This document shows positions 1-64,000 of a stretch of 64,000 nucleotides of DNA, piece after piece; the stretch's first letter is position 1; each line of letters opens with the position of its first letter. Source of the stretch: Chrysophaeum taylorii (taxonomy: Eukaryota > Sar > Pelagophyceae > Pelagomonadales > Pelagomonadaceae); the NCBI GenBank assembly GCA_029834535.1, contig JAQMWT010000159.1, positions 1 through 64,000 of the forward strand, in the 5' to 3' direction. The notes below the pieces were generated by a model that ran no database searches, had not been told where the DNA came from, and saw nothing but the letters and a program-made list of their open reading frames with translations. A program made the position numbers and the translations under genes.

Positions 1-299
1 ACGATTACAATATGCTTCTAGGCACGACCGCAGTAGTTCTCGCCAATCGCCAAACCAATGGTCTCTTGTCACTGCTCTCCCATCCAAAGCAAACATTCCG
101 CGCTGTGATCAGTTTCCACACCGGAACCAAAATGTCCCTCAAGGATGAACTTGCAAACATAACTCAGAACGTAACAAAGACGCGCTCGCAATCTCACCTC
201 CTCGATTTCGTCAAACTGCAAAACCATTCTGCATTCCTGACGGACTTAATAGGACTGCCGCGTAATGTCGTCCAATATGCTTTCACTGGCACAGCGGAC

Positions 300-2000
300 C
301 TCTCTGTGCAAGCACAGCCCCCTCCGCTACATACAGCCATTATTGCAGGTGGACTCCACCAAGAGGGTTTCGCCTCTTTTCGCAAACGTTTCGCCTCTTT
401 TCGCAAACGCTTCGACCAACGCATCATTGTCGTTGCCACTGTAAAATAAACCCCATTACGCGCGCCCGCGCGCAGCAACTGTTCCCGCATGCTCTGCATT
501 ATAAGGATCTCAGAAAGCTCACTGCCGCACCGCAAGCCGGCAAAATGCGACTACCTCAACTTGACCTGGCTGTTTTCACCTTGCCTTGTCAACACCTGAG
601 CGTAATGAAAGACTATGACGGCTATGCCACTCCGGCAGCCGCCGATCTCTTCGTCAAAGAACACATACAATTTGTTCGTTGCACGCTCCCGACATACACC
701 ATTGTCGAGAATGTACCACCAAACCCGCAAACCCACCACGAGTACGCCCAGCTCGCCAAATGCTATCAAAGCATGGGCTACTTCCAGCATGGGTTACTTC
801 CGACACTTCGGTGTCTATAATGCCTCCGCCTTTGGCGAGGTCATAAGCAAGAACCGCTACCTCGCTGTCTTCGCACGACACCCGCTAAACGGCTACAACC
901 TCGAGAAAACCGCTTCTCCCTGGTTAATATCTCCTCCGAGCATGGTTCCCCTCCTGGACCCAAGTCACACTATCCCCGACGATCTCTGGATAGCCAACCC
1001 CGCTCTTCGCGGCACAGTGACCCGCTCCACCTTGGATTACTATCAGAACAAAGCCACTTTCTCATATGCACCCGCCAATGCTGCTCAACTCTCGATTTCC
1101 GAGAATGCACGCATCTGCCAAATGCTTGCACGCCGGAAGAAGCCCTTCACGGATCTAGGACTGGACGCCGACGGCACCCCCTATGCCTCGATGACCACCA
1201 TCCCACATCTCTTGGTATTTACATTGCTGCACAATCATTTGTCGCAACACCCTACTCTCGCCACATGGAACACACTCCGCTGCTTTCACGCCTCAGAGTC
1301 TCAATGTGCTTACCACCTGGATGGAGCCATCTCCGGCACTGCCGCCACTGAGGTCGCATGTGGCTACTTCCCGCGCGCATCCCTCACCTTGCATTCGCGC
1401 CCCCCTCAGATATTGGACTGCTCACACCAACCCGCAGTCTTCTCCCCAACGCACACCTTCTCCCTGGATGTTCCCAAGGGCACCGCCTTTCTGGTCGTCG
1501 CCTACACCAACTCCTTAGCAGCCGCTCACAGCTGCTCGCGCCCCTCCACGTGGGTCCACTACATGAATCGCCTGCATCCTGGATTTGCTGCGATCAACTC
1601 ACAAGGGCGGATAATCCTCGATGACCCCACGGGACTCATAATGTCCGAAGCACGTCCCACCTACGCGGACTATGTTGGCCACATCGGCGACACACTCCAG
1701 AAAAGCACCAAGTGCTACTCGGTCACTGGCTCGTACCCAACCAACACGAGCTACTCCAACGCACTACTGCTGATCTCTCCCGACCACATCCGATACGCGA
1801 CTCTCAACGAAATCGCAAAGTTTGGACACCACTCGGACCCGGAATTGCTTCGCTTGTTCCAACAGCACCCGCCGTACTTACCGTCTAAGGCACTTGCCAA
1901 CGCCGTCCCGCACAACATGCTGCATGCTAAGTACAGCACTGTCCTCGCACTCCACGAATCGCATCACCGCGTGAATCTTCACATCGAATGGGCAACCATA
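300..2000 (+). mobile_element. Cytosine-5 DNA methyltransferase module inside the copia element
   Basis: Recognisable motifs of the C5-methyltransferase family appear in the correct order: a glycine-rich motif I-like stretch (AGGLHQEGF), the catalytic motif IV (LPCQHLS, with the PCQ cysteine nucleophile), motif VI (ENV), a motif VIII-like stretch (SKNRYLAVFARH) and a motif X-like ANAVP near the end. Much of the module shares one reading frame with the integrase downstream, so it was probably made as part of the polyprotein. Family knowledge: such enzymes transfer a methyl group from S-adenosylmethionine to C5 of cytosine. The suggestion that the element methylated its own copies is inference. 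Fossil; coordinates rounded. Confidence 0.75.
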
Positions 2001-2289
2001 CGCAACGGCATCCCCAGTCCCGGAGACATCGCTCGGGTTGCAGAATTCTTCTTGAACATCTCCAGCCGTCTCTTAGCAGTGGAGGACCTCCACCTCACCT
2101 CCTTCTTCAATGCTGTTGCAGATGCCCACCATGCTGCGATCCGCAAGCCACGCAAATCGAAAAACCTCGAGACGCTACTTGCCGAGGCCACAGTTGCTAA
2201 AGTCAGAGTCGACAAGCGACCCAGCCCAACAAGCGCTTCGACTGCCGCTCTGCCCCCCTTGCACAAGCCCGGCACCACTCAGCACGCAA

Positions 2290-3200
2290 AAAGAGTGCTT
2301 TTGGTCACTCGCTGGCACCGCATACACCACCAACAACCCGAGATTCTTCGCCGCACGATTGCCGCTAACGTAACGAATCTCCGCCCAGGTGATTATCGGT
2401 ATCTGCAAGACTGCAGCGAATGCAAGCGCTGTCGATCGCATGTCAGCTTCAGTCACAAGAACACTTCCTGGTCACAGGATGAACTGGCCTACGCTCCTGG
2501 CCAACATCCACACATGGATGTATCCTACCCGAGCATCAGTAAATGCTATGATGGATTCCGCAACATCATGCACTTCGTGTGTGTTATTTCGGCACACAAA
2601 TGGGTATACTTCCTGAGGAAACTGGACGCGCAGGACGTTCTGGCTGGCATCCTCTACGTGCTCAACGTGATTATTGTCGAATTCGATGTAAGTGTGGAAT
2701 CATCTCATCTGATGCTTTTTCCACATTCCGCTCCGAAGCTTTTCACCCGCCCAGGGTGCAACTCGGTATCCAGTTTCAAATCATTGGTCGCCACCTAGAC
2801 CAGCGGAATTTCGCGGAAAACATCATGAAAGAAAATACTCGAGGCACTGTCGTTCGCCTCCTTAACCTGCGCAGCGTCCGCATCGAAGGAAAGCCTATTA
2901 GCGCCGAGTATTACCACCCGTTTGCTCGGCTGCATAAGATCCAAGCAGACAGTCCGCGCTCTCATGGATTGCCCTCGCGCACTCACATGCCCTGCACCGT
3001 CCCCCGGCGCATTATGTCACCCACGGCACCACTCTTGAAGCTCCTCCCCTTTGGCGAACCTGTCACATTCGCCTATCCGCAAAGCCAAGAAGTAGAACCC
3101 TCCAGTGTCTCCGCCTCTTATTTCCACAGCAACAACTATCTACCGAATCTCCCTGGCACGGACCGATTTATCCGCGATGTTAACAGCTCTATCCTGCTTG
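2290..3200 (+). mobile_element. Copia integrase part of the element
   Basis: An HHCC-type zinc-binding region with a CSECKRC cysteine pair is followed by an HMDVSYPS stretch that fits the first catalytic Asp of the DDE core and by a hydrophobic strand typical of retroviral-type integrases. It sits between the methyltransferase motifs and the reverse transcriptase, as expected for copia. Fossil; coordinates rounded. Confidence 0.7.
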
Positions 3201-4399
3201 TACATCAAGGGCGATATGGAAAAATCGTCACCTCGAACGACTTCCACGTTGATGCGGACATGGTAGTCAATCGCAACAAGGAAATTGAGCGGATTAAAGC
3301 ACAGGCGCAGTTTCCAGCAGAAGCACGGCAAGAGGACCCGCTCCCAGCTATAAGCGATCAGCCAATGCCGGAACTTAGACAGGAGTCGCAAAATGAGGGC
3401 GAGACTCATGATAACAACCATGATGACGAACCCGATGACGAAGGCAAGAACAAGGAACCAGATCAAACCTCTGCTACTGGTCCAAGTCCCGTCAGCGACG
3501 AGGCACCTGAACAGGACTTTTCGTTCCTCAACAGGTCACCTTCGCCGGATGGAAGCATTCCGATGCCCAAGCGAAAAGATCGCCTAGAGGTAGTTCTCGA
3601 CGATCCAGGTTTTACTCCAGTCTTCGTGCATCGCAACCAGAGTGACAAACTCAAGGCAGATCTCAATGACGAGCGCGGATTCCGCATTCCCAAAGATCAA
3701 CTCTACATCGTAAAACGCGTTGACGATGGACAACTATTCAGCAGACGCATTATCGCATCAGCGTATGGTCGCAACTGGAAATACCAACAGGAGCAACCCC
3801 CGGCTCGCGCCACAGCCAACATGTCCAGCACATTGATGTTTCTCATCAGTGTCAGCGCTCTGCACCAGGGCCATGCCGCCAGCATCGCATCTGATCTCAA
3901 CATTAGAAGGGACGCTAAGCCGCCAGATGATGTCCCGACAGGATGCCTCCTCGCAAATACCACTCAAGACTATGGTATCATGGGCGGCACTGCACTGGAT
4001 CTGCAGAGAGAAACCGACGCAGAACTCTTGTACGTTGACTTCCCACGGAAGCCGTACCATTCGTCTGTCCTGGTCGACCACCTGGACAACGACAATTCTG
4101 TTCTCGAGAACTATGTATGCCATGGCGAATTGTCACCGGCAGAGTACTATGCGCGTCAATGGAACCAAGAATTCTGTTGTATGAGTTCCTCTCTCTTATG
4201 GGACATCTCAGCGCATCAGCACTACCACCTAGCTTCTCGTCACAGACACGCCATCACCCATGATTCTGGCGAACTCGGACACCTTTTTCAAAGTCAAAGT
4301 GATCCGAATTTGACACTCTCCAAGAAGTTATGGACTATGACTTACAGCACATCGACCATGTCGTGTTACAACTCGTGACTGCTGATGACATTGTCTATG

Positions 4400-6190
4400 A
4401 GCCCGAGAAGATTGTCGAACTCAAAGGACTCAGCGAAGAAGATAAGCTTAAGCACATTGCTTCGATTCGCAAGGAAATTGAAGGCTTGTGCTCCAACGGC
4501 GTCTTCAAGCTTGAACCTTTACCGCCAGACCGTTCGTCTATCTCGACGAAACTCGTGCTGAAGATCAAGTATTTTGCTGACGGCACCCCAGACCGCTACA
4601 AGGCTCGTCTAGTTGCCCGAGGTTTCTTGGCACGCGTCGGCATCGACTTTTATGCCACATCTTCACCGACCGCGATGCTCGCCACTAACCGGTTATTGCT
4701 CGCCATCGCTGTGAAGCACAAGCTTCCCGTCGCGCACGCGGACATTCCCCAGTCATTCATCCAATCGGCACTTGATCGCCCGGTACGGATAGACTTACCT
4801 CGAGGGATTCATGTCTCGCAAAACCTTGTCCAGCAGATACAGAAGAACCACCCAGAGTCCAAGCTAGCTCTCCGACTCGTCAAGGCTCTCTATGGTCTCA
4901 AACACTCAGCTTTGTTGTGGAACATTAAGCTCGACTCGCTTCTTCGACAACATGAGTTCGAACGCTCACAAGTCGACAGTTGCCTCTATATCAGTTGGGA
5001 TAGATCTATTAACAGAAGGGTTCTTCTATCCGTCTCTGTCGATGATCTCTTGATCACTGGTACCAACACCGCCAAAATCACATCTCTTCGCACCGCTTTG
5101 GAGAAGGAATATGGCAAATGTACATGGCACGATAACATCCGATCCTTTCTTGGTATCAATGTGCACTACAATGTCTCCGCTGGCCACCTCACTATGAATG
5201 TAGCAGCGAATATAAACAAGATGCTCGCCGAGCATAAACTCAATCTCCGTACTACTGACGTCCCCTACTCTGACATTCTCACTTAGAAACCTTCTGCTAA
5301 GTTTCTTTCCGACTTGGCTCCTACTTTGGAACTATTACGCAAGCATTTTCCCCGTTACTATGGCACTAGTATCTACTTGTCTGTCACATGTTGTCCAGAT
5401 ATCACCACTCTGCGCAACAAACGCTGCAAAGGTATGCACAACCCCGAGCAGACCCATCTTCTACATTTGTATGTTTTACTTCGCTATTTGAAGGGTACCG
5501 CGAATGATTCACTAGACTGTTTATCCGACAGTCCCTCTATTAGGCCCTTTATTCAGCATCTTATCAGCAACTACCCCTAATTGCATCATCCTAGTTCGCC
5601 TATTATTTGTTTCACTGATGCCAGTTTCGCTGACAGTTCTGACCCTCGCTTACGATCTCGTTCTGGTGTATGTATTTTCGTATTTGGCAACCTCGTATTC
5701 TGGTCTAGCAAACGCCAAACTCTTACTGCCAAAAGCACCATGGAAGCCGAACTCATCGCCGCTAGCGCAGCCGCGGATGAATGCCAATGGTTTCATAAGA
5801 TCTTCTCTTCTCATCCTTATCTGTTTTCACGTGATCAAGCTCACGCTATCCCCCTGCTTATTGACAACGCTAGCGCATTACATGTCGCTAATCACCCTAA
5901 AGTCAGTGCTCCCTCTCGTCATATTAATTTACGAGAATTTCGCATTCGAGACTACCAGGCCAACTCGGTCATTCGTCCCCTCTGGTGTCCTACTCACTAC
6001 CAGATCGCTGATCATTTTTCAAAACTTCTTTCCCGCAACTTGTTCCACAAGGTCAAGAACGCCTACGGTGTTCATTCCACCTCTTCTTCACCACCATCTC
6101 ATCAAGTTACTCTTTCCGCAACTCTTCCACCGTACAATTCCGCCCAGAACACTCTCAACATCCTTGTGGATGGAAAATCGCTTCCCGCTT
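4400..6190 (+). mobile_element. Copia reverse transcriptase and RNase H part of the element
   Basis: The reverse transcriptase shows the copia landmarks YKARLVARGF, a LVKALYGLKHSALLWN stretch and the catalytic VDDLLITG. The RNase H portion shows CFTDASFADSSD, a SSKRQTLTAKSTMEAELIA stretch and a DHFSKLL end. These are highly characteristic of Ty1/copia. An acidic, low-complexity linker (about 3.3-3.6 kb) lies between integrase and RT. Fossil; coordinates rounded. Confidence 0.92.
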
Positions 6191-6519
6191 AGTTTGATCC
6201 AGATTTCGCTCACCGAGTTTTCAATTTGTGAGGACGTAGAGATAGACAATTTGATTTAGGTTAGGACCCCACTATCCTAGGGTTAGCTCTCTTACTTCTA
6301 GCACCTTTTAGAAAAACGCTGTGTTATTTACACCGTGCTGTCCTCGTTGTTAGAGGCAGAACGAGGGTAGACTACCACTCTCGCACGCTCGCTACATCGG
6401 TTACCTCAAGAATAGCGACCGTTGCTAAGGTTTCAAAAATCATTCCATGCGCTCTAAAAATCATTCCACGCGAGCTCCGCTGCCAACTATTCGTGATTAC
6501 TTCAATATGATCATCCTCG

Positions 6520-7480
6520 ATGGTCCGCAACGGCAAACTGCGTTACGCTACTCGTCCAGAGCTCATTCGAGCTAACAACCCTACGAAGGAACAAGAGTCC
6601 TTATTGCTCTCTCCTTGTGCCGATCTGTGTTGCGACATTATCAGTAATGCCTTACCTGCTGGTACGTACAGTCTCTTGTACACCAAACTTGTGCCGCATT
6701 TTTACTGACGTGAAACTTTCAATGATCGTGCAATTCGGCTTAACAGCTAGGAATCAACCTTTACTACACTCGAGTTTCCGCGAAGACGTTCTCTCCATCG
6801 TCTCCCACGCTGCTGGCGTCGAGCGCATCAACAAGAATCACGGCATGGTCTATTCACAGGCGCGAGCAAGCATGGGCAACGTCAAAGCGAGACGTGCCCT
6901 CTTCGTCTTCACCAATGAGATCTTGCTCTACAAGTCGGAGAGTCCGGTCATCGTCTCGTTCGAAAGATCGTCAAAGCCACCACGAGCCATGAGCGAGCAG
7001 CATGCCGACTTGATTCTGGGCGATCTTTAGCGCATGGACATCAAGGACCATCTACCGGCCAAGAACCAGGCAATCGAGAACACCAAGGACGATTGCGAAG
7101 ACGAGGATGACGGCGAAGACGACAGAGACGGTCTCCTCTACTTCGAAGAGCTTGCAATCCCGCCGGGTTTCACGTTCGTCGAGAAACCGGCTACCTTCCT
7201 ACGCGAGAACGAACGTGAGCCGCTCTATTTGTTGCTGTGCTACGAAGACACCTCCGTGAGCTTAAGGAGCCAGCTAGCTGTGGTGGTTCGGCAAAATTCA
7301 CAAGTACAAGCCAAGGGCGCGAGTTTACAATTACGACGCTCAATGGGACAACACCGCGCCTCGGCAACAGGGACTCAAACTCGACGACTACGTCGACGAC
7401 CCTCAATACCCGATGGTCGCAGCCGGACGCTGGTGTTATCTGAAGAGGAGCGTCACTCCTTCAAAGCGAGGCCGCCCTTC
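6520..7480 (+). pseudogene. hAT transposase C-terminal remnant
   Basis: The stretch AAGVERINKNHGMVYSQARA followed by RRALFVFTNEILLYKS matches the hAT dimerisation region (xERxxSxxxxxxSxxRxxLxxxxxxxLxFxxxNxxLL pattern). An acidic tail (DDCEDEDDGEDDRDG) follows after a stop at 7,028-7,030, and a basic region shifts frame around 7.25 kb. No terminal inverted repeats were found. hAT elements are cut-and-paste DNA transposons. The N-terminal catalytic parts are not visible, so this is a fragment abutting the copia element. Confidence 0.6.
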
Positions 7481-7594
7481 TAGTGATGACGAGAACGACC
7501 GCCCTCTTTCTCGTCGCCGCATCGACGATGACCTCGACGTAGGTTCGACCGGACGCACGCTGCTGTCAATTCTAGCCCCCCTTACACCCACCCA

Positions 7595-8590
7595 CCCCAC
7601 TCTCTTTAAAGACACACCCACCCCACTCTCATTTCAGCTCGACGCTCTCACCCCCGCCAATCTAAGCTGCCTTGATAAGCGCACGTTCGCTAACCTTTGA
7701 GTTTACTCCTAAGCCCCCCTGTGGCTTACTACTGCTTTATATAGCGAAAAAGCGTATGGTCAAATAGGCTAATCCGGATAAGCCGCCCACACACTTTTAT
7801 GCCGCTATACCCCCTTCCACGCCCGCTCTGCCTTTGTAATTAGGCTTTAACCTTTGAGTTTACTCCTAAACAGGGTCGGACAAGTCTCATAATCATAAGA
7901 AAGTTCGTACGAGCCGTTAACTATGTTTCAGTTTGTACTAAGACATACTCAACGGATCGCTGAGATATGTTCATTTGTACTCAAGCAGTATGTGCCGCCA
8001 CGCCGCGAGATCGTCGCGATGGAACTAGTCCCCATAGTGAAGTCGGCATCCTTTCGTCCCCTCACGCAAAAAAAGGAAAAAGCCCACGCGTTGTAGGACC
8101 CGTCGTTGCGGCGCGGGCTAGTCTCGTTTTCTTATCCGACCCTATCCTAAACCCCACTCTCCAGCAACGGCATTACGCGCAGGCGCACTTCAGGGAGCGC
8201 CAAGACGCTTACAGAAACGCCAACGGCCCCTACGTCTCTCGGCCGCCGGGTCCTGGCGGCGCCCGGACGGTTAGGCTAACGCCTTGCCGTCCCCCTTACA
8301 CCCACTCACCCCACTCTCATTTCAGCTCGACGCTCTCACCCCCGCCAATCTAAGCTGCTTTGATCAGCGCACGTTCGCTAACCTTTGAGTTTGCTCCTAA
8401 CCCCACTCTCCTTTCAGCTCGACACTCTCACCCCCGCCAATATAAGCTGCTTTGATCAGCGCACGTTCGCTAACCTTTGAGTTTACTCCTAAACCCACTC
8501 TCCTTTCAGCTCGACGCTCTCAACCGTCAATCTAAGCTGCTTTGATCAGCGCACGTTCGCTAACCTTTGAGTTTACTCCCAAACCCTGCA
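7595..8590 (+). repeat. Cluster of ~92-bp repeats (CCAATCTAAGCTGCTTTGATC module)
   Basis: Three head-to-tail units begin near 8,309, 8,401 and 8,493 and run to about 8,584; a further unit lies at 7,622-7,708. Each reads CCACTCTC..TTTCAGCTCGACGCTCTC, then CCAATCTAAGCTGCTTTGATC, then CGCTAACCTTTGAGTTTACTC. The end of the module recurs alone near 7,850. The same module occurs inside the Helitron-like copies at 30.4, 56.0 and 57.9 kb, so this cluster is probably debris of that family. No gene was seen here. Confidence 0.8.
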
Positions 8591-8750
8591 ACAACACCGG
8601 CTCCAACACCGACACCAGGTGTATGGACGTAAATACCGACACCAACGGCGGAACCTCGTTGTGCGGGCCGCGTATCGACGGACCCTTTCGACGTCATTTC
8701 GAACACTTTTGGCCGCACCCGCCACGCGTCTCAAAAATCTCCTCCCTCGT
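8590..8750. other. Short non-coding stretch with repeated ACCGGTAATTACC words
   Basis: Between 8,745 and 8,822 the words TACCGGCAATTAC, TACCGGTAATTACC and TTACCGGTAATG recur in direct and inverted form. Nothing else is supportable. Confidence 0.4.
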
Positions 8751-10225
8751 TACCGGCAATTACTAGGGTAATGGAAAATACCGGTAATTACCACCCTCTC
8801 TGTCGGCATTACCGGTAATGTAGGAGTCATAGCCTTTTCCACTTCTTCTTTCGTCGGAAGCTTCACTTGCCGCACTTTCATAGCCTCGTTGTCCTTCACT
8901 TGCTCCGGAGTTTGCGGTAAAGGCGCGCCATCTTCATCATCACGCGGAGCGTCTTTCCAAGGCACATCGAACTTTCCCTCCTGTTTGAACCTGACTTCTG
9001 GCTTGCTTTTGTTTATCTTCTCTCCTTTGACTCGTACTCCGGGTTCACTCTTCGTTTTTGTTTCTCTGTTCCCATCCTAATCTGGCGAAAAAAGGTCTTC
9101 TGCGGTCCACCGGGGGGGTGGGAGGCTGCCAAAGAAGCATGCGACGACCACGTCGCGCTTGTTTTGGGCGGAAATAATGGCACTTCGTGAGGTTTCCATT
9201 CGGTAGGATCCTGTAAATCCTGCTGTGACACCCACTTGACCACGCGCGTTTGAGTGTTGATCTGCAATGCGAGTGTGCAAATAATGCTCACGTTCAGTGC
9301 AGTCACTTTCAAACGAACTTGGGATGGCTGGCCGGCGGGGCATAGGGCGTCCTCACGGACTTCGGCGACCTGGCGGCAGAGCGTTGTGAAGATCGCTGGC
9401 CGGCATAGCAACCGAATTGGCTGAGATGACAGAAGCCAACTGTTTGAACGTCGCTGTTTTCGTCAATCTAGCCCAATCAAGTGCGGAATGCACGCACGGA
9501 GGTGTGGCAATTAACATAGACGATGACCATTCCTCGCGCGGCAAATAGTCGTTGATCAACAGTAAAGTAGTAACATAGCGTCCTCCGCCTTTGGAATATC
9601 GAGGAAGTTGGCGCGATGAATCTTGTTTGCTGCAGGCTCAGATATATGGCGAACACGACGCGAAGAGAAGTGTCATACAACTCGTAAGTTCGTTGAATCC
9701 CCAAAGTGCTACCTCCAGCGCCGCGAAACTGCGTGACCACCTTCACATTAGTGTGCGAAATCCATCCATTGGACTTTTTCGTATAAATCTCACACTCGGT
9801 GGCGTCGCTACACTTTTGCTCTTCTTCTTTGGACCGACGATGAAGATAAGAAAATTGCCATCGACGTCTGACGGGTTCAGCGTCATATCAAGAGGCTGCG
9901 GCGAATAGTTTGGTATGCCCGGCTAGCCCGCCTTGGTACAAAGTTGAATCGACTCGGGAGAGTCTTCGACATGATTGAGATGACTCTTCTTCGAGATGGT
10001 GAGCAGAACGCGACGGACAGGTCGATTGTTCGTGGACCAACACGTCCGCGGCCTGCGACGCTATTGCACGACCTCGCACAAAACCGCGCGCAGTGGCGGT
10101 CCGCCATCAACAAGTCCGTCCTCGTCCCTCGCCTCTGCCCTAACTGCGTGATTTTCCTCTGTGATTCCGTACCGGCTCCTGCCTGGCTCCCGTGCTCTGG
10201 CTCCCATGCCTCGGGAGAGGTCTGA

Positions 10226-15265: not shown

Positions 15266-15889
15266 ATGCTGTTGTTTGTCGTCGCCGGCCTGACGGCTGT
15301 CCGCACATCCATGATGATGGGCCGCAAAAAGAATCTGATGTCGGACATACTCGAGGAAGCTTACCGCGAGAAGCCGTCCAAAAGCCGCGAGACCGAAGCA
15401 ATTGTGGATTCTTCGCTCGAATTCTCTAGGTGTTTCGACCTGTCGTCGCTACTCGGCCGAGGAGGCAAGGATCGCATCGACGCGACCCTCCGTCCGACGC
15501 CGTCGGAACTGGACAAAATGGCGTCCCGCCTCGGCGTCGCCGCCCTAAGCGACGTCGTCGCCGTAGTCGAAATTCTTCGCGACGGCGACCGCGGCCTCGA
15601 GCTCGCGGGTCGTCTCGAGGCCGTTGCAACGCAGCCCTGCGTCGTAACGGCTCGCCCCGTCGAACAACCGATCGAACTCCGCTTCCTCGTCAAAATCCGC
15701 GAGGAAGACGCTAGCCTCGGCGATAAGGACGACGTCGTCCCGCTCCGAGATATATCCCGACCGGACGGCTCCGCCCTCCTCGACGTCGGCGAAATCGCCC
15801 TCCAGTACTTATGCCTCGAGGTCGACCCCTTCCCCCGCGCCGTCCCCCACTCCTCCGAGCCCCTTGCCGTGACTAACCCTACATCGTAA
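15266..15889 (+). CDS. DUF177/YceD-family protein, probably organellar
   Basis: The 207-residue product has a basic N-terminus (MLLFVVAGLTAVRTSMMMGR) that could be an organelle-targeting leader. Residues about 75-195 fit the DUF177/YceD family: an ELDKMASRLGV helix, a beta-rich part, CVVTARPVEQPIELRF at 125-140, and a LLDVGEIALQYLCLEVDPFP end at 171-190. In bacteria YceD affects 23S rRNA accumulation and is linked to the rpmF operon; plant DUF177 proteins act in plastid rRNA metabolism. The CVVT-PVEQ form resembles alphaproteobacterial versions, which suggests mitochondrial ancestry (inference). The ATG is the first in frame and follows AT-rich spacer. It lies 49 bp upstream of the GT29 start, same strand. 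Single exon, GC-rich third positions. Confidence 0.75.
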   Translation: MLLFVVAGLTAVRTSMMMGRKKNLMSDILEEAYREKPSKSRETEAIVDSSLEFSRCFDLSSLLGRGGKDRIDATLRPTPSELDKMASRLGVAALSDVVAVVEILRDGDRGLELAGRLEAVATQPCVVTARPVEQPIELRFLVKIREEDASLGDKDDVVPLRDISRPDGSALLDVGEIALQYLCLEVDPFPRAVPHSSEPLAVTNPTS

Positions 15890-58093: not shown

Positions 58094-58179
58094 AGTTAGA
58101 CTGATAAGGATGATAAGGATGATCCTCGTTGTGGCAAAAGGTAGGGCAAGGGAGTAGATAGAAAAAGTGCTCGGTTGGT

Positions 58180-61100
58180 ATGAGCCGCGGCGATATGGGC
58201 CGCGCGTCATCGTTCGACGACTCGTCCGGATGGTCGGACTCGTCGTACGCCTCGAGCACCAACGGCGAGGAGGAGGAGGAGCTCGAGACTATCGCCCCAG
58301 ACCACTTTCGATCATCCGTGATGCGGCGCGCGTTGGGGGGTGTCGTTGTCCCTGAGGAGGAAGAGTCACCCGAAGATTCGCCCGTTGAGGAGTCGTCCGT
58401 TCTCTTCGACGCGCTTCGCGCGGCCGAGTTGCGCCAGGACTCGACCGCCTTCTGGGAGAGCACCTGGGACAGCGATGAGTCGGGGGAAATAGAAACCGAT
58501 CTCTGGAACATGGGTCGAAGTATTTTTTTCTCTCGCTCGCGCCGCGAGCTCGCGCTGCCAAAGGAGGTGGCCGTCGCGGGTTCGACGCCGGAGAACCCCG
58601 CTAATCCCGCGGCGCACCTGGCTCATCGCGCCTCCCCCCGCGAATCGCAGTTTCTTGAAGCACCCGACGCGAGCCCTTCCCTCGAACCACTTCCCGACGA
58701 AAGATCTCGGTATTACGCGGACGAATCGGCCGAACGAACACCTCCGGAGTCTGATGAGCCGTCCAGAAGAGCGGAACAGCCTCCAGACCCGTGCGATTTG
58801 AGCGCGTCGTCGCCACCTCTCGAGCACCCCCCGAAGCAGTCGTCGCCCAAACCGCGCCGATCGCTTCCGCTCGTCGCCCGCTCTACGCTTCTCGGTCGCC
58901 ACTCTTCGGATCCAGCGCGACGGTCGACGGCGAGGGCACCCCCCGAGCAGCAACCTCGGCAGCAGCCAGGAGGAACGCCCGTTGCGCCGCCTTCCTCTCC
59001 TCGAGAATCTCGAAACGCCACCGCCGCGAGCTCGACGTTACGGGCGAGTAGTCGAGCCGAGTCCGAGTCCTCGACGGCTGCTGCCCAATTGACGCCAAAA
59101 AATCGGCGCTCGCTCGCCCAACGAATAGTCCCTGCCCGCACGACGCTCCTTGCTCGCCACGCTCCGACCTCAGATCGGGATCCAGCGCGACGTTCGACGT
59201 CGAGCTCGTCTCGGAAGCGGTTAGCACCGACGAGCAATCCATCAGCACGAGCGACGCCCGTTGCCCCGCCGTCCTCTCCTCGAGACTCTGTTGTTGCTGC
59301 CGCAAACGCGAGCGTTGTCGCTGATGAGCAGGCGGGTGCGGCGCCGACCAAACTTGTGTCAACATCACTAGCGAGCCCGCCCGCATCGTCGACGCCGAAC
59401 GAGTCGACGGCGAGGAGCTCTTCTTTTTCGAGGGCACCGCCCGAGGCGCGAGGGCGTCGAGATTCCCCAGCAACACACTCCACACCCGTCGTGCCGCCGT
59501 CCTCTCCTCGAGAATCTGCGTACGAGAGCACCGCTGATAATGAGCAGACGGGCGTGGTGCCGACCAAACCCGTGCCGACGTCGCCGGCGACCTCGACCAA
59601 ACAACCCGTGCCGCCAACGTCGCCAGCGACCTCGACCCCCAAACCCTGCGTGCCGCCAACGTCGCCAGCGAGACCGTCTCCGGCGTCATTGTCAGCTAAC
59701 GAGCAGCAGAACCCGAAACAACGACGCTCGCTTGCCCAGCGAATAATCCCGGCACGCACGACACTCCTTTCTCGTCACTCTCCGACTTCAGATCGGGATC
59801 CAGCACGACGGCCGACGTCGACCGCGAGCCCGTCGTCGCGGGCGCTCGAGCATAAAGCGCGGAGCGTTCCAACAACGCCCGTACACGCGACGCCCGTCGC
59901 GCCGCCTTCCTCTCCTCGAGAATCTTCAAACGCGAGCGCCGCTGATGATGAGCAGGTTGCGCCGACCAAACCCGTGCCAACGTCATTGGCGAGCCCGGAC
60001 GAGTCGTCGACAGCTTATTACGAGCAGCAGCAGCAACAGACCCCGAAAGAACGGCGCTCGCTCGCCCAACGAATAATCCCAGCCCGCACGACGCTTATTG
60101 CTCGCCAAACTCCGACCTCGGATCGGGATCCAGCGCGACAGCCGACGTCGCCCGCCAGCCATTCCCGGGTACCAAAGAAACAACTACAGAGCGATCCATC
60201 ACCCGTGCCCGCGACGCCCGTTTCGCCGCCTGCACCACCTCCTCGAGACTCTGCAAACACCAGCGACGTGCAGACAGGAGCACTGTTGGCCAAACCTATG
60301 CCAACATCGCCATCGAGCTCTCCCGGGTCGTCGTCGATAACCAACGAACAGACCCTGAAAGAACGGCGCTCGTTCGCCCAACGAATAATCCCGGCTCGCA
60401 CGACGCTGATTGCTCGCCACTCTCCGACTTCGGATCAGCCAGCGCGAAAGCAGCCAACGTCGCCGGCCAGGGTATCCAAGCAGCCAGGGCAGCGCGATCG
60501 ATCACCCATACCTGCGACGTTCGTTGCGCCGCCTCCCTCTCGTCGAGACTCTGCAAACGCGAGCGCCGACGAGCAGACGGGAGCACGGCCGACCAGCAGA
60601 CCGACGGCAACGTTTCCGGCGAGCTCTCCCGTGTCGTCGTCGACAGCTAACGAGCAGCAGACCCCGAAACAACGACGTTCGCTCGCCCAACGCATAATCC
60701 CGTCACGAACAACGCTTATTGCTCGCCACTCCTCGACCTCGGATAAGGCAGCGCGACAACCAGCGTCGCCCGCCAGCCCTCCGCGGGTACCCAAGCAGCC
60801 AGGGCATCGCGATCGATCACCCGTACACGCGACGCCCGTTGCGCCGCCTCCCTCTCCTCGAGAATCTTCAAACGCGAGCGCCGCTGCTGATGAGCAAGTA
60901 GGAGCAGTGCCGACCAAACCTATGCCAACGTCACCAGCGAGCTCTCCCGCGTCGTCGACAGTAAGTGCGCTTACCCCAAAACAACGACGCACGCTCGCCC
61001 AGCGCATAATCCCGGCACGCACGACGCTCCTTTCTCGTCACTCTCCGACCTCGGATCAGCCATCGCGACCTACGACATCGCTCGCCAGCCCTTCGCGGGT

Positions 61101-64000
61101 ACCCAAGCACCAAGGGCAGAGCGACCCATCAGCACCCATACATGCGACACCCATTGCGCCGCCTCCCTCTCCTCGAGAATCTTCGAACGCGAGCGCTGGT
61201 GACGAGCAAGCAGGTGCGGTACCGACGAACCTGCGGATCGCTCAACTGGCACCAGATCCATCGCCCGACGACACTGCGAAGCAGCATCCTTTTCGGCGGC
61301 CGTGGAGTGCCTTGCGAGGGCCATCGCGACGAATAGTGCCCGCGCACACGATTCTTACTGCTCGGTCTTCGCCCGAAATACCCTCCAAACAGCCAGTTGC
61401 CTCTCGCGAACCGGCGTCGCCTGCTACACCCAACGACCTTTCTCTTACGTCAGCAGACAAGGAGCTCTTTCAGCCGCAGAGTGCTTCGCCCGCAGTAGAG
61501 CAACCGACAGGGGCTAACTCGATGATGAGCACACGCCTCTCTCTCGTGGAACCATCACCCTCTAAAACTGGCACCTTCGAACAGCCGGGTGCATTGCTGC
61601 CGTTGCCGGTTCCCCGTCCTTCTCTCGCAGCAAGTGACAGTGCTGACTGGCCTTCAGAGCCGCGAAGTCCGTGGCAGGTAGCCGAGGGACCCGCAGCGGC
61701 GGCACCGGTGATGAACATTCGCCCTGCTCCTGAATCATCTTCGAACACCCGCAAAAAGACCAGCTCCCACGAGCAGCCAGGCACCCCGGAGCGACCTACG
61801 AAGCCGATAGCTCTGCCTGCTGTCGCATCATCAGGCGAAAGAGCGAAGGAGCTGAGGGCGTTGAAAGGTGTCCCAGGACCAACAATGCCCGCGCGCCCTA
61901 CTGCCGTTCCTCGCTCTACTTCGACGCCGCACGAACAACAAACACCACAACTTGTAGCAACACGATTGACGCAGCACCTCGAGCCCACGCGTGCATCAAG
62001 AGAGATCCCCAAGCATCAGTCACAAAGGCCACTGTTGGAAAGAGGGCTGCTGGAGGAGCCCGGAGTCATTGATTTTTCCATAGATTCGGAATCATCGGCC
62101 GCCAGTTATGGGCAACGAGACGCGGAGACGCAACCGGGGACTCCAATCCCACCGTCGCCAGGATGTCCAGACGGCGCGAACGTAGGACAGCCACGTGCGC
62201 GTTCAGGAGCACTGCAACCGATGCCACTCACACGTGTCACTCCTGTATCTCGCCCCGCATATCCTCCTGCGACTTCATCTCCTTCGAGGACGGATAAGCA
62301 GCAGCCGAATACCCCATCGAAACAATTGACTAGCCTGCCGTTGGCACCAAGAGATAAACAAACAGCGCCTGCGAACGCAACCGAGTTGCTAGACCCCATC
62401 GTCCCCATCGTTGAACAGGATACACGGTCACCGCCAACACCGGCGCAATCAAGGACAAGCCCTCCTGGCCTCGGCACTATGTCACCGCAAATTGATAGGT
62501 TGCCCGGTGTTACCGCGCTGCTTGGAGCTCGGTCTGCACTTGAACTCGAATCGGAGGAGCCGTTTGATCATCTCTCAAGTGTTGCGCAGCCGGTGGTCCC
62601 GGCGTCTGTCAAAGAGCCAATGTTTCGAGAGCATACTGAATCGTCAGCAACAAAATTTGAGCAGCCGTCGAAGCCACACATTGCAGTGGGTTCGCAACGC
62701 GTAAACGTGAAACTCTCTTCTTTAACGCCACCAATAAGGCGCAGCTCTGAAGAGCCAGTGAAAACATTGCAACCACCAGCACCGTCTTCTCACAGCAATC
62801 GTGCTGCTAACTCATCGTCGAGAGATGCTCCTGGTGGTAAAGAGCTTCGCGTTGCATCTCCGGTAACTGCTCTGTGCTCGACGATGTCATCACGCCCAAC
62901 CCCAATATCTCCATCGCCGCAAGCGTCGTCAAAGGTACCCGCGCGCACGACTCCGATTGCTCGCCCTTATTCAGCAGCAGGGTCGCCTGGCGTGCAGCTG
63001 CCGCAACAATTCTCATTGCCGCAAAAGATGCTAGCACCTGCTCAACGACCGGCATCGTCCACCCACGCGATGCCCATCACTCGACCCCCCGGGTTTGCAG
63101 CTGACGTCGATTCCGAGCACCCTCCCGAATATGCTTTGAGTAAAGTACAGCCTGAAATCCCGGCGTCCGCGAAAGAACCAATTTTTAAACCAACGTTGTC
63201 CGAGGACGCTGATTTGTCGGCAAACACGTTTGAGCAACCGTCAATGCCGCGAAGTGATGTGGATTTGCAACCTGCTAATGTGAAATTGTCCCCTCCAGCA
63301 CCTCCATTACGGCCCCGTTCCGAACAGCCAGTGGAGACGCCAATTCCGGCAGCGCCAGCTACCCCAGCTACCCCGTTCGATTGCGCCGTACCGTCTTCGT
63401 CGATTTGTGATCATGATGGAAAGCAGCCTGACGTTGGATTACCTGTAGCTTCTCGACGGTCGACAACACCCACACGCGTGGCTCCAGTGGCTAGTCCATC
63501 GCCACAGCACCAGCTGTCGATGGTACCCGCAAGTACGCCTTACATCGCTCACCCTTTTCCGCCGCGCCCAGATGCAGAAGGACAAGGCACGCTACTGCCG
63601 CAGCAGCTTTCACCGCATCGAAGTGCGCAACGCCCACCACAGCAGAGCATGTTACCTTCCGCTCAACGACCGACACCGCCTTCGCGCTTGACTCCTATAG
63701 CTTGCCCGCCGGGATTTCCTGCCGATGTCAAATCCAACCAGCTTTCCAAGCATCTGCTGCGTGATGCGCAGCCGAAGATCCCGGCATCTGTAAAGGAACC
63801 AACGTTTGGTGAGGACGTCGCAAGCACATTCGAGCAGCCGTCAAGGCCTCGTAGTGCTCTGGATTATCAACATGCTAACGCGAGATTTTCCTCTATGCCA
63901 CCACCATTTAGCCTTGATTCCGAACAGCCAGTGGAGACGTCAAGACCGGCATCGCCAGCTATCCCGATCGATTGTCCCGCAACGTCATCGTCGATTTGTA
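58180..64000 (+). CDS. Giant Pro/Ser/Thr-rich repeat protein, open at the right edge
   Basis: One frame without a stop from the ATG at 58,180 to the window end: at least 1,940 codons. An in-frame TAG lies 21 bp upstream, so this ATG is the first possible start. Residues 1-130 are acidic and Ser-rich (FDDSSGWSDSSYASS; EEEEELE). From about 226 to 1,070 a ~104-residue repeat recurs, marked by a basic RRSLAQRIIPARTTLIAR box and a PPSSPRES box. From about 1,470 a second repeat with a ~190-205-residue period begins (QPEIPASAKEP, then FEQPS, RSEQPVE). The composition predicts an almost wholly disordered protein; no catalytic domain, signal peptide or membrane segment is seen. Possibly a scaffold or cytoskeleton- or wall-associated protein; that is guesswork. 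Complete end and function unknown. Confidence 0.85.
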   Translation, partial: MSRGDMGRASSFDDSSGWSDSSYASSTNGEEEEELETIAPDHFRSSVMRRALGGVVVPEEEESPEDSPVEESSVLFDALRAAELRQDSTAFWESTWDSDESGEIETDLWNMGRSIFFSRSRRELALPKEVAVAGSTPENPANPAAHLAHRASPRESQFLEAPDASPSLEPLPDERSRYYADESAERTPPESDEPSRRAEQPPDPCDLSASSPPLEHPPKQSSPKPRRSLPLVARSTLLGRHSSDPARRSTARAPPEQQPRQQPGGTPVAPPSSPRESRNATAASSTLRASSRAESESSTAAAQLTPKNRRSLAQRIVPARTTLLARHAPTSDRDPARRSTSSSSRKRLAPTSNPSARATPVAPPSSPRDSVVAAANASVVADEQAGAAPTKLVSTSLASPPASSTPNESTARSSSFSRAPPEARGRRDSPATHSTPVVPPSSPRESAYESTADNEQTGVVPTKPVPTSPATSTKQPVPPTSPATSTPKPCVPPTSPARPSPASLSANEQQNPKQRRSLAQRIIPARTTLLSRHSPTSDRDPARRPTSTASPSSRALEHKARSVPTTPVHATPVAPPSSPRESSNASAADDEQVAPTKPVPTSLASPDESSTAYYEQQQQQTPKERRSLAQRIIPARTTLIARQTPTSDRDPARQPTSPASHSRVPKKQLQSDPSPVPATPVSPPAPPPRDSANTSDVQTGALLAKPMPTSPSSSPGSSSITNEQTLKERRSFAQRIIPARTTLIARHSPTSDQPARKQPTSPARVSKQPGQRDRSPIPATFVAPPPSRRDSANASADEQTGARPTSRPTATFPASSPVSSSTANEQQTPKQRRSLAQRIIPSRTTLIARHSSTSDKAARQPASPASPPRVPKQPGHRDRSPVHATPVAPPPSPRESSNASAAADEQVGAVPTKPMPTSPASSPASSTVSALTPKQRRTLAQRIIPARTTLLSRHSPTSDQPSRPTTSLASPSRVPKHQGQSDPSAPIHATPIAPPPSPRESSNASAGDEQAGAVPTNLRIAQLAPDPSPDDTAKQHPFRRPWSALRGPSRRIVPAHTILTARSSPEIPSKQPVASREPASPATPNDLSLTSADKELFQPQSASPAVEQPTGANSMMSTRLSLVEPSPSKTGTFEQPGALLPLPVPRPSLAASDSADWPSEPRSPWQVAEGPAAAAPVMNIRPAPESSSNTRKKTSSHEQPGTPERPTKPIALPAVASSGERAKELRALKGVPGPTMPARPTAVPRSTSTPHEQQTPQLVATRLTQHLEPTRASREIPKHQSQRPLLERGLLEEPGVIDFSIDSESSAASYGQRDAETQPGTPIPPSPGCPDGANVGQPRARSGALQPMPLTRVTPVSRPAYPPATSSPSRTDKQQPNTPSKQLTSLPLAPRDKQTAPANATELLDPIVPIVEQDTRSPPTPAQSRTSPPGLGTMSPQIDRLPGVTALLGARSALELESEEPFDHLSSVAQPVVPASVKEPMFREHTESSATKFEQPSKPHIAVGSQRVNVKLSSLTPPIRRSSEEPVKTLQPPAPSSHSNRAANSSSRDAPGGKELRVASPVTALCSTMSSRPTPISPSPQASSKVPARTTPIARPYSAAGSPGVQLPQQFSLPQKMLAPAQRPASSTHAMPITRPPGFAADVDSEHPPEYALSKVQPEIPASAKEPIFKPTLSEDADLSANTFEQPSMPRSDVDLQPANVKLSPPAPPLRPRSEQPVETPIPAAPATPATPFDCAVPSSSICDHDGKQPDVGLPVASRRSTTPTRVAPVASPSPQHQLSMVPASTPYIAHPFPPRPDAEGQGTLLPQQLSPHRSAQRPPQQSMLPSAQRPTPPSRLTPIACPPGFPADVKSNQLSKHLLRDAQPKIPASVKEPTFGEDVASTFEQPSRPRSALDYQHANARFSSMPPPFSLDSEQPVETSRPASPAIPIDCPATSSSIC
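58855..61380 (+). repeat. ~104-codon repeats within the giant ORF
   Basis: The basic box RRSLAQRIIPARTT or its variants starts at residues 226, 309, 515, 625, 729, 832, 936 and (degenerate, SRRIVPAHT) 1,050. Spacings of 110, 104, 103 and 104 in the best part show a regular unit; the 206 gap is two units with one box lost. Each unit also carries ATPVAPPSSPRESSNASA-like and VPTKPMPTSPASSP-like segments. Confidence 0.92.
62587..64000 (+). repeat. ~190-205-codon second-order repeats in the giant ORF
   Basis: QPVVPASVKEP, QPEIPASAKEP and QPKIPASVKEP start at residues 1,470, 1,657 and 1,864. Each is followed by FEQPSxP, a VKLSxxxPP stretch, and SEQPVET. More copies probably follow beyond the window. 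Confidence 0.88.

Follow-up and report, generated by a model that had tools for sequence, protein, structure and literature searches.

The start of the window (the whole stretch of 64,000 nucleotides analysed here) raises the question whether a Copia retrotransposon can carry a cytosine-5 DNA methyltransferase (MTase) as part of its own polyprotein and, if so, what such an enzyme would do for the element. The original prediction placed a fossil, broken Copia element at positions 300 to 6190, with C5-methyltransferase motifs directly upstream of the integrase and partly in the same reading frame.

The decayed copy in the window and the anatomy of the element

Bases 1–6393 of the window are a decayed copy of a Copia LTR retrotransposon on the + strand, truncated on its 5′ side at the contig start. 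Because window base 1 is also the first base of contig C159, gag, protease and the 5′ LTR are absent from this copy, and the pol stretch leading from protease to MTase (1–323, frame 3, open at 3–446) lacks its upstream part. The predicted extent lies within the element but misses its ends, where the element runs on into a degraded 3′ LTR (6235–6393). This LTR matches the 3′ LTR of another copy, L023 on contig C96, at 77%, and its last part is unrecognisable. L023 (3303–9651) matches window positions 15–6393 at 84.6%.

The MTase module occupies 324–1940 and passes from frame 3 to frame 2 and back to frame 3. It begins with a motif-I-like block, a degenerate AdoMet motif (TAIIAGGLHQEGF, 333–371, frame 3), followed in frame 2 by motif IV, with the PCQ and its catalytic Cys (TLPCQHLS, 578–601), and by motif VI, with the ENV (IVENVPP, 701–721). 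Motif VIII (YNASAFG..NRYLAV, 816–869) is again in frame 3, as are motifs IX and X (1773–1922), which were placed by alignment to HaeIII and by motif reading (IX at 1773–1826; X, ALANAVPHNML, at 1890–1922). The region between VIII and IX (870–1772) is presumed from its position to be the target-recognition region. The predicted order of motifs I, IV, VI, VIII and X on the + strand is borne out, with motif I being degenerate. Because motifs I and VIII–X stand in frame 3 but PCQ and ENV in frame 2, this copy is broken.

Downstream of the module, an HHCC block at 2313–2441, which we take to be the integrase zinc-binding motif, shares frame 3 with motifs VIII–X. The same holds for the first catalytic Asp of the integrase (2514–2534, in the open frame 609–2795), and the D, D, E core as a whole (2514–2833) continues from frame 3 into frame 2. 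Enzyme and integrase thus partly share a reading frame, as predicted, and the position ahead of the integrase is given more exactly as between protease and integrase. The Copia reverse transcriptase RVT_2 follows at 4498–5241 (frame 1; E = 7.6e-41 on the 4303–5283 frame). A further region at 5605–5970 (frame 1) has no Pfam match and is presumably the RNase H, named from its motifs ICFTDASFAD and STMEAEL.

The order of the element is gag / PR-MTase-IN-RT-RH, with the MTase in the pol frame and inside the LTRs. In L023, gag lies at 1000–2733, pol at 2697–8552 as an open frame of 1952 aa, and the RNase H part at 8556–9443, after the pol frame. Pfam recognises PF00145 (residues 349–475), rve (1016–1110; E = 0.006, below its cut-off) and RVT_2 (1686–1933; E = 1.6e-38) in this pol; gag, protease and RNase H of L023 each lack a Pfam match, and the protease was assigned by its motif, DGGA in L023 and DSGA in relatives. 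In both the window and L023 the integrase lies upstream of the reverse transcriptase, which is the Ty1/Copia (Pseudoviridae) order.

LTR pairs were found in 7 of 16 copies (L022, L023, L025 and L029, and partly L027, L033 and L035). A repeat in L036 was also considered and turned out on reading not to be an LTR pair. The LTRs are ~200 bp long and run from TAGAGATA to TTCTCTA in most of the four pairs read (L022, L023, L025, L029), with small variations. Ty1/Copia LTRs usually, not universally, end in TG...CA; these LTRs have other ends. All four are flanked by 5-bp target-site duplications, as judged by eye, and show 94.4–96.4% identity with gaps left out; BLAST, with gaps counted, gives 84.3% for L022 and 89.4% for L023. 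For the tRNA primer binding site, aragorn returned no tRNA for comparison. The RVT_2 match, the integrase ahead of the reverse transcriptase and the LTRs with 5-bp duplications in other copies uphold the prediction of a Copia element, and we are highly confident of the anatomy of the element and of its Copia assignment. One element copy, L023, has a 218-bp tandem duplication (557–991; 99.5%) upstream of gag.

Copies in the genome and relatives elsewhere

In the window's own genome (G000; 70.8 Mb, 697 contigs), the 609–2795 frame gave at least 75 matches (61 of 1081 candidates scored) at no fewer than 61 loci, and PF00145 at least 57 matches (123 of 474 candidates scored) at no fewer than 55 loci, where matches within 4 kb are grouped into one locus and two host MTase genes are set aside. 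The union of both searches amounts to at least 93 loci, which is not an insertion count because fragments are included and contigs C10 and C297 look duplicated. PF00145 alone detected 32 loci; three of these were fetched (L039, L040, L041), and each proved to be a copy of this element in which gag, MTase and pol are present. Over the main pol pieces L039 is close in protein identity, L040 is at about 64–84% and L041 at about 68%. The genome holds further copies with the same module order, the MTase lying inside the LTRs and in the pol frame.

Eight of 16 copies keep the MTase open in a single frame. Small deletions or altered stretches affect three of these eight: L030 is without motif I, L032 misses two ENV residues, and L033 is altered after motif VIII. 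The description as fossil and broken fits the window copy but not the family, since younger copies exist (open MTase in 8 of 16, LTRs 94–96% identical in the four pairs compared). As a separate observation, many reverse-transcriptase matches of other Copia families in G000 have identical RVT_2 scores (150 of 1670 candidates scored), which suggests recent Copia activity in this genome.

Relatives were collected with the IN-RT part of L023, which led to 11 proteins, and with a three-protein pol alignment, which led to 32. Three ENA proteins, P0001 (2396 aa), P0002 (2428 aa) and P0012 (2320 aa), have the same order as the element and are alignable through the MTase; they represent three distant sister families. 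By construction, a four-family MTase profile scores these three at 745–778 bits; among the 39 other proteins no passing score occurs, the best having E 2.3. Identity of the MTase-bearing relatives is 38–40% in the RT regions and 21–28% in the MTase regions. Viral contigs scanned with P0001 and P0002 yielded no confirmed relative.

The RT-RH set comprised 44 rows (42 proteins and two from G000). P0008 and P0033, dropped at extraction, and P0009 and P0010 were left out of the tree, which has 40 rows and an arbitrary root. The five MTase-bearing rows make up one side of a branch with support 100/99, found in 100% of 200 bootstrap trees. MTase-bearing reverse transcriptases thus appear to form one clade, with one apparent gain of the enzyme; the absence of MTase-less members from this clade is only as good as the sample, because the rows came from word-sharing searches. 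Outside the clade, the Copia-type polyproteins P0025 and P0028 contain a dUTPase domain (PF00692), and this predicted dUTPase is another captured enzyme.

Identity of the methyltransferase and constraint on its sequence

Pfam DNA_methylase (PF00145) matches the 266–817 frame of the window at 23.2 bits (E = 5e-5), above its curated cut-off of 22, and the 609–2795 frame has no Pfam match at E ≤ 1. The same profile scores L023 at 32.1, L025 at 26.4 and P0002 at 39.7 bits; P0001 and P0012 remain without a match at E ≤ 0.1. An MTase profile built solely from P0001, P0002 and P0012 matches both window frames (609–2795 at E = 3.2e-19; 266–817 at E = 1.6e-16). The best E among 400 shuffled sequences was 0.4 (200 from the 609–2795 frame and 200 from the host C634 enzyme, none from the 266–817 frame). 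Because the host's own two C5-MTases do not reach E 10 with it, this relatives-only profile recognises the branch specifically and is no general detector of MTases. Profile searches of the individual frames, a check proposed with the original prediction, came out in its favour.

The catalytic Pro-Cys, Glu and Arg of motifs IV, VI and VIII are invariant in all nine rows compared. A canonical motif I (FxGxG) is absent, this motif being degenerate in all four families; the Gln of PCQ is lost in two of the four, and the Asn of ENV in three. Motifs IV–VIII can be aligned with the catalytic domains of M.HaeIII, M.HhaI, DNMT1 and DNMT2, and motifs IX–X also with HaeIII. These proteins have a canonical motif I and, unlike the element MTase, are free-standing or host enzymes.

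C5-methyltransferases ranked top in sequence searches and fold searches with the element MTase, and HaeIII entries make up two of its best three sequence matches. The modelled structure has the class I MTase fold, and over model range 1–182 it aligns in fold with the catalytic domains named above. With relatives included, the model reached usable confidence for part of residues 1–150 only (121 residues at ≥50); a model from 8 near-identical copies (pLDDT 28.7) was not usable. In a viral fold library, phage, giant-virus and herpesvirus MTases were matched too weakly to name a donor. When the MTase region from G000 was the only query, no protein among 7992 scored candidates reached E 0.001. The sequence and fold matches support the assignment of the module as a C5-methyltransferase. 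No special link to DNMT3 was seen, and the family is not obviously DNMT3.

Comparison of copies from several subfamilies shows purifying selection on the MTase (dN/dS about 0.2, neutral = 1). Pairwise dN/dS over 20 loci (window, L021–L036, L039–L041) was 0.213 for the MTase (190 pairs), 0.191 for its catalytic part and 0.194 for the VIII-to-IX region. The other parts gave 0.169 for gag, 0.177 for the protease part, 0.116 for the integrase core, 0.179 for the integrase C-terminal part and 0.151 for RT (66 pairs); all pairs share copies, and the values include decay after insertion. Among pairs with dS > 0.35, dN/dS was 0.177 for the MTase, 0.152 for gag, 0.101 for IN and 0.081 for RT, with 0.159 for the MTase catalytic part (140 pairs) and 0.182 for the small IX–X block (91 pairs). 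Constraint on the MTase is thus roughly at the level of gag and protease, and weaker than on IN and RT. Values of up to 0.57 occur in single comparisons with the frameshifted L041; for the window copy, the catalytic part compared with L023 gives 0.41.

Possible role, known systems and the host setting

As part of Pol, the MTase would be produced together with reverse transcriptase and integrase and would enter the virus-like particle with them, a placement that would give it access to the cDNA. There it may introduce 5-methylcytosine into the cDNA of the element itself, either ahead of integration or as it takes place. A new copy would then arrive in the genome already marked, and might either pass as host DNA or influence the chromatin of the insertion site; the host has a DNMT5-like gene of its own. 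A Pol-borne, co-packaged MTase that pre-marks element cDNA is our best explanation overall, and we hold it with about even confidence; for cDNA methylation taken singly as the role of the predicted enzyme, the chances seem somewhat below even.

A separate gene of host or foreign origin, located beside a normal Copia element or nested in it, is an extremely improbable explanation of the MTase. No support for this reading was found. The MTase aligns within the element in 19 loci (L021–L036, L039–L041, picked by MTase-region matches, so that its presence there is by selection), stands in the same open frame as IN and RT in the L023 copy, and occupies the same position in P0001, P0002 and P0012. 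An unrelated flanking gene outside the element's ends had been named as the finding that would overturn the original prediction; other copies place the MTase within the LTRs instead.

An alternative explanation might be that the fold is kept for binding nucleic acids instead of for catalysis, so that this part of Pol would steer integrase or cDNA, with its AdoMet chemistry lost or fading. Such a function would agree with the degenerate motif I of all four families, two of which have lost the Gln of PCQ and three the Asn of ENV, but it is at odds with catalytic Cys, Glu and Arg residues invariant in nine of nine rows and with the dN/dS of 0.159 in the catalytic part, and we consider it unlikely. 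Slightly less probable again is a role on RNA, in which the domain would methylate the genomic RNA of the element or its tRNA primer and so aid packaging or priming. DNMT2 is an enzyme that methylates tRNA; however, ~300 residues separate motifs VIII and IX of the element enzyme (window 870–1772), a spacing seen in enzymes that have a DNA-recognition domain, and the HaeIII of its best matches is a DNA enzyme.

Across the papers covered (PMC5890265, PMC12344493, PMC6338049, PMC9998398, PMC3248453, PMC5445492, PMC12477816), retrotransposon DNMTs are described in LINE, DIRS and Gypsy elements. In the parts concerned, KnitGypsy-Dnmt3 of Klebsormidium nitens is described as a Gypsy element with a DNMT3 in Pol (de Mendoza et al. 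2018, PMC5890265). Like the window element, it is an LTR retrotransposon whose Pol polyprotein includes a C5-MTase, and selection is likewise purifying; it differs in being Gypsy rather than Copia, with a DNMT3 enzyme and a charophyte host. According to the same passages, SymbioDIRS-Dnmt3 and SymbioLINE-Dnmt of Symbiodinium are likewise multi-copy algal retroelements whose coding region includes a DNMT; unlike the window element, they are a DIRS element (tyrosine recombinase) and a LINE, respectively (PMC5890265). The abundant Copia elements of Symbiodinium are described there as having no DNMT domain, and DIRS-type retroelement DNMTs as able to methylate CG de novo (PMC5890265). For a Copia-borne DNMT, the open literature (subscription papers, Repbase notes and preprints being outside its scope) returned, in the portions covered, one passing sentence, which places some DNMT3s in 'LTR Copia' and DIRS elements (Mol Biol Evol 2025 msaf176, PMC12344493). 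This sentence cites the 2018 paper describing Gypsy, names DNMT3, and comes with no architecture or sequence in the passage concerned. The main text of two surveys on fungal LTR elements contains neither 'methyltransferase' nor 'methylase'.

The Copia superfamily would thereby join the retroelements with a captured cytosine methyltransferase, in a host probably outside the two described lineages, dinoflagellates and charophytes, and with an enzyme that is not obviously DNMT3 and whose position is fixed between protease and integrase. That a single clade, with one apparent gain, has retained the domain in diverged relatives suggests that it is useful to the element rather than a passing capture. 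More tentatively, a deep Copia lineage may have gained an orphan C5-methyltransferase once, fixed it between protease and integrase and carried it in several hosts, where it would methylate cDNA in the particle and pre-mark insertions in hosts that maintain methylation by DNMT5. The element offers a many-copy system for testing self-methylation of retroelement cDNA.

The two strongest PF00145 matches in G000, on C634 and C621, were considered as further elements and rejected, being a free-standing MTase and an MTase with SNF2. The C621 gene (L038, 2467–8727) joins MTase and SNF2 domains in one open frame of 2086 aa and is DNMT5-like. The C634 frame (L037, 1821–2903, + strand) encodes a free-standing C5-methyltransferase of 360 aa, presumably DNMT2-like by its pattern. 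Near it, at about 1317–1778 on the − strand, lies a match to red-lineage algal light-harvesting proteins (best VCPI-6, 6.7e-18). This match points to a host among the red-lineage algae, probably a stramenopile.

A CG deamination footprint was looked for among the element copies and not found. At third positions, C/T differences stood at 0.292 before G; the value before C was equal, and those before T and A were lower. G/A differences were 0.220 after C, below the 0.284 after A. These results are compatible with methylation, and host DNMT5 would confound any positive. By 4-kb block, CpG observed/expected was 1.02 and 1.12 in the window's first two blocks against 1.06–1.44 in the other 14, a small difference that carries no weight. 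Elsewhere in the window, a + strand frame at 15873–16844 matches glycosyltransferase family 29 (sialyltransferase; E = 4.4e-15). A + strand open frame of 1946 aa at 58162–63999 has no Pfam match at E ≤ 0.001 and includes, at 59655–61226, a 312-bp repeat in 5.0 copies with 73% matches.
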